Shown here: in pieces, positions 18,982-38,394 of the stretch
Layout of the letters: every line of letters starts with the position of its first letter
Position numbering within the stretch: position 1 is the first letter of the stretch
NCBI RefSeq assembly: GCF_000591035.1
Contig: NC_022521.1
Location: forward strand, 806,001-870,000
DNA from: Aeropyrum camini SY1 = JCM 12091
Lineage (GTDB): Archaea > Thermoproteota > Thermoprotei_A > Sulfolobales > Acidilobaceae
Direction of reading: 5' to 3'
Length of the DNA stretch: 64,000 nt
The notes under the pieces: model-generated
Told to the model about the DNA's origin: nothing
What the model saw: only the letters and a program-made list of their open reading frames with translations
The model's database searches: none
Position numbers and translations under genes: made by a program

Positions 18982-19070
18982 TGGCGCCGGGGGCGGGATT
19001 CGAACCCGCGCGCCCCTCGCGGGGCAACGGGTCTCAAGCCCGCCGCCTTGGGCCGCTCGGCCACCCCGGC
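18982..19070 (-). tRNA. tRNA-Ser (anticodon UGA), CCA encoded
   Basis: Class II tRNA read on the reverse strand. Acceptor GCCGGGG pairs with CCCCGGC. It has a D arm GCC...GGC, an anticodon loop CTTGAGA with TGA at 19036-19034, a long GC-rich variable arm (CCCCGCGAGGGGC), and a T arm GCGGG-TTCGAAT-CCCGC. Discriminator G is followed by an encoded CCA (18984-18982). No intron. The discriminator and long arm exclude leucine. AT-rich boxes at 19086-19095 and 19101-19110 are possible promoter elements. Confidence 0.96.
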
Positions 19071-19256: not shown

Positions 19257-19327
19257 TTTGGGGGATGATGTTAACGAGGTAGTCTGAAAGGTTGGGAGTG
19301 TTGAGGTTATCCCCGGCTGACCGCAAA
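19257..19327 (+). ncRNA. Box C/D sRNA, predicted 23S rRNA 2'-O-methylation guide
   Basis: C box ATGATGT (19265-19271, one deviation), 12-base guide, D' box CTGA (19284-19287), 11 bases, C'-like TGTTGA (19299-19304), 12-base guide, D box CTGA (19317-19320). Flanks TTTGGGGG and CCGCAAA can form an imperfect terminal stem. The spacer lengths are those of archaeal C/D sRNAs. The D guide (GGTTATCCCCGG) is complementary over 11 bases to the universally conserved 23S sequence CCGGGGAUAAC. By the N+5 rule the methylated base is G2446 (E. coli numbering). The D' guide target was not recognised. Confidence 0.72.
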
Positions 19328-19350: not shown

Positions 19351-19881
19351 TTGGGAGGCTATTCTAGCATAGCCTACAGGGTTTCCAGGGCGAGGGGCAT
19401 AGAGGGGTGCTCCTGGTATGTAGTCGGCTCAATTTATGTAAGGCCGGATAGCGTTTTTTCGAGGCTCGTAAAGGCTCTGGATGATGAGGGAGCTTTGCTG
19501 CATTATGTCGACGAGGTTGAGAGGAGGGTTGTGTTTAAAATAGGGTTTAAGGGCCTAACTAGGCTTGCACGGCTGATAGCTATGTCATCCAGGGCGGTCT
19601 CACTAGAGCTGAAGGCCTCCTGCAGGGCGGAGAGCTGGAAGGACGCCTTAGCCGATATCATGGATAGTTACAGGATTTTCAGGAAGGATAGAGAATCCGG
19701 TGTTCTGGTGGTTTACGGCATTGCCATGGGGAGAATAGTCGAGGCCGAGGTTAAGGGGAGCCGTGTCCATCTAAAGATAGGGAGGCCATATAGAGGCTCC
19801 CTGGGCTCTGTGCCGCCACAGGGCCTATTCAGGCTGTCTCTGGAGGAGGTTTTTGAGCTGATGGGGTATGGTGGAAACTAG
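19351..19881 (+). CDS. Unknown protein (176 aa)
   Basis: No family is recognised. Soluble alpha/beta protein: SWYVVGSIYVRPDSVFSRLVKALDDE resembles a strand-helix unit, repeated loosely by RVVFKIGFKGLTRLARLIAMSSRAVSLEL, then helix and strand pairs SGVLVVYGIAMGRIVEAEVKGSRVHLKI. The LxxL-rich C-terminus (LFRLSLEEVFELMG) overlaps the start of the membrane protein gene by 14 bases, so translation is probably coupled. The start is taken as TTG at 19351, downstream of the C/D sRNA. Confidence 0.75.
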   Translation: MGGYSSIAYRVSRARGIEGCSWYVVGSIYVRPDSVFSRLVKALDDEGALLHYVDEVERRVVFKIGFKGLTRLARLIAMSSRAVSLELKASCRAESWKDALADIMDSYRIFRKDRESGVLVVYGIAMGRIVEAEVKGSRVHLKIGRPYRGSLGSVPPQGLFRLSLEEVFELMGYGGN

Positions 19882-37392: not shown

Positions 37393-38394
37393 ATGTCCAG
37401 TGGTGACTGCGACCCCATAATTGAGGTTGAAAACCTGAAGGTTTACTTCTACACATACGCGGGTGTAGTCAAAGCCATAGAGGATGTCTCATTTAGGATT
37501 TGCAGAGGCGAAACATATTGTCTCGTCGGCGAGACAGGATGCGGGAAATCTGTTACAAGCAGGGCCTTGACAAGGCTTATATACCCGCCCGGCCGGATAG
37601 TTGAGGGCAAGATATACTACTACCCAGAGCCCGGCAAGAGGGTCGACATCATGTCACTGAGCGTGAAAGAGCTGCGACGGCTAAGGGGTGAGGAGATTGC
37701 CTACATATTCCAGGATCCTTCAGCAGCTCTGGACCCCCTCTATACCATAGGCTATCAGGTTGGGGAGACGATGCTGGCCCACGAGAGAGTGACGAGTCTC
37801 AAGGAGGGGGTAAGGCGGGCTGTAGGAGTGTTGAAAACCGTGCTAATGCCTGACCCGGAGAAGCGGGTCAAAAGCTATCCGCACGAGCTCAGCGGGGGGA
37901 TGAAGCAGAGGGGCGTCATAGGGATATCACTATCAAACAGGCCTAAGCTCCTGATAGCCGACGAGCCCACAACAGCCCTTGACGTCACAATCCAGGCTCA
38001 GATAATGGACCTCCTAACAGAACTGAAGAAAAGACATGGTCTGACCCTCCTTCTCATAACCCATAACCTAGGCCTTGTGGCGGAGTATTGCGACAGGGTC
38101 GCTGTTATGTACGCTGGAAACATTGTTGAGGAGGCTCCGGTAGAGGAGCTATTCAAAAACCCCCTACACCCTTACACGAGGGCCTTGATAAAAGCTGTTC
38201 CTAACCCTCTGGCCAGGATAGACAATCTAGAGCATATACCGGGCACCGTGCCAAACCTAATAAAACCGCCCCCCGGCTGCAGGTTCCACCCCCGCTGCCC
38301 CCTAGCCTTCGATAGGTGTAGCAGGGAGAGGCCTTTGCTCAAGGAATATAGCCCCGGGCATAAGGCGTCGTGTTGGGCGCTTGAGAAAGGCTAG
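37393..38394 (+). CDS. ABC importer ATPase, DppD/OppD type
   Basis: 333 residues: Walker A GETGCGKS (about 48-55), Q-loop YIFQDPSAALDPLYTIG, signature LSGGMKQR, Walker B LLIADEPTTALDVTIQ, H-loop ITHNLGLV. The C-terminal oligopeptide-family extension has cysteines in PGCRFHPRCPLAFDRC...ASCW. This arrangement is known to bind an Fe-S cluster in some family members. It is co-translated with the permeases (7-base gap) and pairs with the DppF-type ATPase. Confidence 0.95.
   Translation: MSSGDCDPIIEVENLKVYFYTYAGVVKAIEDVSFRICRGETYCLVGETGCGKSVTSRALTRLIYPPGRIVEGKIYYYPEPGKRVDIMSLSVKELRRLRGEEIAYIFQDPSAALDPLYTIGYQVGETMLAHERVTSLKEGVRRAVGVLKTVLMPDPEKRVKSYPHELSGGMKQRGVIGISLSNRPKLLIADEPTTALDVTIQAQIMDLLTELKKRHGLTLLLITHNLGLVAEYCDRVAVMYAGNIVEEAPVEELFKNPLHPYTRALIKAVPNPLARIDNLEHIPGTVPNLIKPPPGCRFHPRCPLAFDRCSRERPLLKEYSPGHKASCWALEKG

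Follow-up and report, generated by a model that had tools for sequence, protein, structure and literature searches.

The window analysed here is a stretch of 64,000 nucleotides of Aeropyrum camini SY1 = JCM 12091 (NC_022521.1, positions 806,001 to 870,000); the genome is a single contig (C1) of 1,595,994 bases. Within the window a candidate box C/D sRNA gene lies between a tRNA-Ser(TGA) gene and an open reading frame that we call ORF176 (Table 1). The original prediction placed it in a 280-base gap, and this is the distance from the end of the tRNA gene at 19070 to the next listed ORF at 19351.

Table 1. Features of the sRNA locus (window positions) and of its targets and partner protein genes (contig positions, C1).
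Feature	Position	Strand	Remark
tRNA-Ser(TGA)	18985-19070	-	
Box C/D sRNA gene	19260-19324	+	covariance-model match including terminal stem
Terminal stem 5′ arm, with first base of bulge	19260-19264	+	arm 19260-19263; 19264 is first base of kink-turn bulge
Kink-turn bulge G-A-T	19264-19266	+	3 nt
C box to D box span	19265-19320	+	
C box ATGATGT	19265-19271	+	6/7 of RTGATGA
D′ guide TAACGAGGTAGT	19272-19283	+	12 nt; fifth base before D′ is G, facing 23S C2498
D′ box CTGA	19284-19287	+	4/4
D′-C′ spacer			10 nt, given C′ at 19298-19304
C′ box GTGTTGA	19298-19304	+	6/7
D guide GGTTATCCCCGG	19305-19316	+	12 nt; fifth base before D is C, facing 23S G2446
D box CTGA	19317-19320	+	4/4
Terminal stem 3′ arm	19321-19324	+	
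ORF176	19351-19881	+	176 aa; adjoins sRNA downstream
23S rRNA C2498	C1:1161388	-	
23S rRNA G2446	C1:1161440	-	
Fibrillarin and Nop5 genes, side by side	C1:1333104-1334618		

Gene anatomy and genomic context

The gene has every sequence-level defining feature of a box C/D sRNA that was tested. C and D boxes stand near its ends, with C′ and D′ boxes between them; the guides beside D and D′ are complementary to rRNA, the target nucleotide facing the fifth guide nucleotide; a terminal stem and kink-turn close the C/D motif; and the organism encodes L7Ae, Nop5 and fibrillarin, the genome having two L7Ae-family genes. The TGA cores of the C and D boxes are invariant among 19 relatives. A box C/D sRNA with near-consensus boxes and guides had been predicted, and it is as described, with strong comparative evidence behind it. 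The proposed 12/11/12 spacing holds for the two 12-nt guides, while the D′-C′ spacer is one base shorter than claimed with C′ assigned as in Table 1.

Three other genomes of the genus share the gene order CDC48, tRNA-Ser(TGA), sRNA, ORF176, MgtC/DUF4010 protein. Among more distant relatives in the family, the sRNA adjoins ORF176, the MgtC-like gene or both, and the tRNA gene lies farther off. ORF176 has no Pfam match, and its identity is 74% in genome G001, falling to about 25–35% elsewhere. Its conserved adjacency suggests that the sRNA may arise by processing of the ORF176 transcript leader. No convincing promoter was found for the sRNA; a scan for promoters and terminators of bacterial type, which is not applicable to archaea, gave nothing useful.

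Relatives and the terminal stem

A covariance model (R1) was built from the 19 double-guide relatives. The window copy matches it at G000:C1:825260-825324 with E 9.3e-16, its own sequence being among those of the model. At E ≤ 0.01 the model matches 127 of the 229 genomes of the class, the weakest of which may not be orthologues. In the scan of our genome collection, the double-guide form came from Acidilobaceae, Pyrodictiaceae, Pyrolobus and Desulfurococcales records. At seven loci (L005, L145, L146, L149, L151-L153) the guides are intact but the D box departs from CUGA, reading for example ATGA, CCGA or GCGA.

No Rfam 15 family reaches its gathering threshold for the window copy, whose best score is 16.2 bits against the cut-off of 38 for sR30. 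The relatives too fall below the Rfam cut-offs (families sR30, sR11, sR14, sR38 and snoPyro_CD), and the best sub-threshold matches include other archaeal C/D families.

The window copy forms three of the four terminal stem pairs (G19263-C19321, G19262-C19322 and G19260-C19324). Bases 5′ of the C box match bases 3′ of the D box beyond permuted partners, with none of 2000 permutations doing as well, and the match is clear with a 3-nt kink-turn bulge and not with other bulge sizes; the best-fitting geometry is the one that a kink-turn requires. Each of the four stem pairs has changed on both sides somewhere in the double-guide set. The covariation score is 0.567, where shuffling gives 0.181 on average, and is reached by 0 of 500 shuffles, relatedness of the genomes inflating these counts; sliding the stem partners strongly weakens the signal.

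Two variants of the stem were seen. In family f3 (L025-L029, L031, L036) the C box reads GGCGATGA and GCC follows the D box; pairing runs directly to the G-A pairs, and the usual 3-nt bulge is absent. Around a D-guide match on the minus strand of another genome of the genus (L010 in G004) lies a diverged member whose terminal stem is long (GGCGGGGG/CCCCCGCC), whose D guide is in register and whose C box is poor; it is possibly a decaying or altered copy.

Guides and their 23S rRNA targets

The D guide forms 11 Watson-Crick pairs with CCGGGGAUAAC (2442-2452) of the organism's own 23S rRNA, bearing out the 11-base complementarity that had been proposed. E. coli 23S numbering places the first base of CCGGGGAUAAC at 2442, which puts the fifth base before D opposite G2446. 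This nucleotide had been named in the original prediction, and both the numbering and the register across the order agree with it. The pattern GTTATCCCCGN{0,4}CTGA matches 69 of the 214 genomes of the order, the reversed pattern few. Precisely one base separates GTTATCCCCGN from CTGA in most of these matches, which fixes the register on G2446.

The one-base form is found in 60 of 229 genomes at class level, with a C box and a C′-like box upstream of most of the matches, though some (such as L012 and L044) resemble chance. An exact D-guide match is absent from 145 of the 214 genomes of the order, many of them incomplete. In family f9 the D guide is weaker, most members having 10 bp, among them a G-U at position 6, and G177 having 9 bp. 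Sulfolobaceae matches with zero bases between GTTATCCCCG and CTGA (L065-L067, L069) look unrelated and were set aside; the genuine Sulfolobaceae members were found through the covariance model.

The D′ guide had been left without a target, and a search of the organism's own rRNA and tRNAs had been suggested. It pairs with GCUACCUCG at 23S 2494-2502 of the same peptidyl-transferase loop, the fifth base opposite C2498, in a register that is conserved and in a duplex that covaries. C2498 and G2446 are 52 nt apart, one on either side of helix 89. Alternative high-scoring sites for the D′ guide are mostly flanks of tRNA loci, and the relatives support the 23S site. Families f1, f5, f8, f10 and f11 all preserve the guide, (A/T)CGAGGTANN, in its register. 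An order-wide search with the D′ guide alone (TCGAGGTANNCTGA) was too noisy to use, hitting 39 of 214 genomes with many matches to the reversed pattern.

Guide and target were compared in 17 genomes for which the D′ guide and the 23S rRNA could both be read. Positions 3-9 of the duplex are all paired in 16 of them. Guide base 6 is G in the genomes with C at 23S position 2499 (8/8) and T in those with A there (8/8, all in family f9, which we infer to be Sulfolobaceae, with the D′ guide ATCGATGTAGG); and the single genome with U2499 retains the guide G as a G-U pair. The change from G to T at guide position 6 seems, from these sequences, to represent few independent events, mainly one at Sulfolobaceae.

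An unrelated D′ segment accompanies the D guide in several f3 and f8 genomes with A2499, which implies that D′ guides are swapped or disappear while the D guide persists. Two exceptions, G219 and G220, have C2499 in their 23S rRNA and yet a different D′ segment. Across families the G2446 D guide is joined to several unrelated D′ segments (L023-L042, L049-L058, L137-L141). Judged from these arrangements, the two guides appear to behave as separable modules.

Interpretation and significance

A chance resemblance in an intergenic stretch, with no RNA made, is one alternative. Under strict C/D rules this locus is the sole candidate in the window, against 0.07 per simulated window (100 windows of the same dinucleotide make-up); looser rules yield 0.65 per simulated window, none with an 11-bp rRNA match. 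The looser rules also pick out a second C/D-like motif at 37998-38060 on the minus strand, without an rRNA match of 9 bp or more, which is about the number expected by chance. An 11-bp rRNA match by itself is not rare enough to settle the matter: when 60 shuffles of each guide were scored against the 12.5-kb rRNA region, 5 for D and 3 for D′ did as well as the real guide. Guide shuffling in a single genome was accordingly rejected as proof, and the argument that a match to so conserved a sequence makes chance unlikely is invalid when it stands alone. It is the register conserved across many genera, together with covariation of guide with target and of the terminal stem, that rules chance out; with synteny added, the comparative data leave a chance origin scarcely credible.

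The element could instead be a kink-turn in the leader of ORF176 that binds L7Ae to regulate the mRNA, and not a free guide RNA. Its position immediately before ORF176 is shared by the genus and several more distant genomes, and L7Ae-dependent mRNA regulation has been suggested in archaea (PMC5539422). We nevertheless think this very improbable, since an L7Ae switch needs neither two rRNA guides in N+5 register nor covariation with 23S rRNA. The two roles would be compatible if the sRNA were processed from the mRNA leader. A somewhat stronger competitor, though still improbable, is a C/D sRNA in which the D guide alone methylates, the D′ half being a spacer or mainly a chaperone contact. The window's own D′ duplex opens with a G-U at position 1, has eight Watson-Crick pairs at positions 2-9, is broken by an A-A mismatch at position 10 and pairs again at 11; and f3, f4 and parts of f8 carry the same D guide beside a D′ segment that is quite different. 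Conservation of the D′ guide and its register in at least five families plus Sulfolobaceae, and the way guide base 6 follows 23S base 2499, argue against it. The locus is thus very probably a double-guide box C/D sRNA gene, with predicted sites Gm2446 and Cm2498 in the peptidyl-transferase loop.

By comparison with its family, the sRNA would bind L7Ae at the C/D and C′/D′ kink-turns, after which Nop5 and fibrillarin would join the sRNP. The sRNP would then pair with two 23S rRNA stretches flanking helix 89, the D guide on 2442-2452 directing 2′-O-methylation of G2446 and the D′ guide on 2494-2502 that of C2498. The sRNA is presumably expressed, and it may help fold the peptidyl-transferase loop. 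A more speculative possibility, which we regard as rather doubtful, is that this Sulfolobales-conserved lineage simultaneously grips the two sides of helix 89 (2442-2452 and 2494-2502). In addition to methylating G2446 and C2498, it would act as an assembly chaperone that keeps the loop open, and it would be the RNA-guided counterpart of the protein-made Cm2498 of E. coli and the snR38-made Gm2446 of eukaryotes.

The gene resembles the archaeal double-guide box C/D sRNAs of the Sulfolobus, Pyrococcus and Pyrobaculum sR families in its C/D′/C′/D boxes, guides of about 12 nt, the N+5 rule, two targets within 100 nt and a terminal kink-turn stem, but it reaches no Rfam 15 family cut-off. A relative may possibly have been predicted already in published sRNA lists (A. 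pernix, Ignicoccus, Sulfolobus). Yeast snR38, a eukaryotic snoRNA, guides 25S Gm2815 (PMC5199042), and its likeness to the present gene is one of target site. By counting from Um2921 in the yeast sequence, we take Gm2815 to be the equivalent of G2446; position 2870 is then a C, which agrees with the listed m5C2870.

In Pyrobaculum, most C/D sRNAs that target rRNA carry two guides whose sites lie within 100 nt of each other (PMC7994747). Cm2498 is a known modification in E. coli, and in ribosome structures C2498 pairs with G2454, extending helix 89 (PMC4690841). There the same nucleotide and modification predicted for the D′ guide are made by RlmM, a stand-alone protein enzyme (PMC11542601), whereas here an RNA guide would choose the site. 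In the open-access subset of the literature we found no report of Gm2446 or Cm2498 in archaea; the peptidyl-transferase region is treated as a hotspot in Dennis et al., 2015 (PMC4644070) and in a 2021 review (PMC7994747), and the main text of neither mentions these positions.

The gene belongs to a well-known kind, and understanding of C/D sRNAs in general is unchanged by it. It provides an instance of guide and target changing together (guide base 6 with 23S base 2499), and the family illustrates how the D′ partner may be swapped while the D guide persists. It also offers two exact predicted methylation sites in the catalytic centre of the ribosome, and a candidate family for inclusion in Rfam. 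If the predicted sites are right, a single archaeal guide RNA would tie together Gm2815, known from eukaryotes, and Cm2498, known from E. coli.
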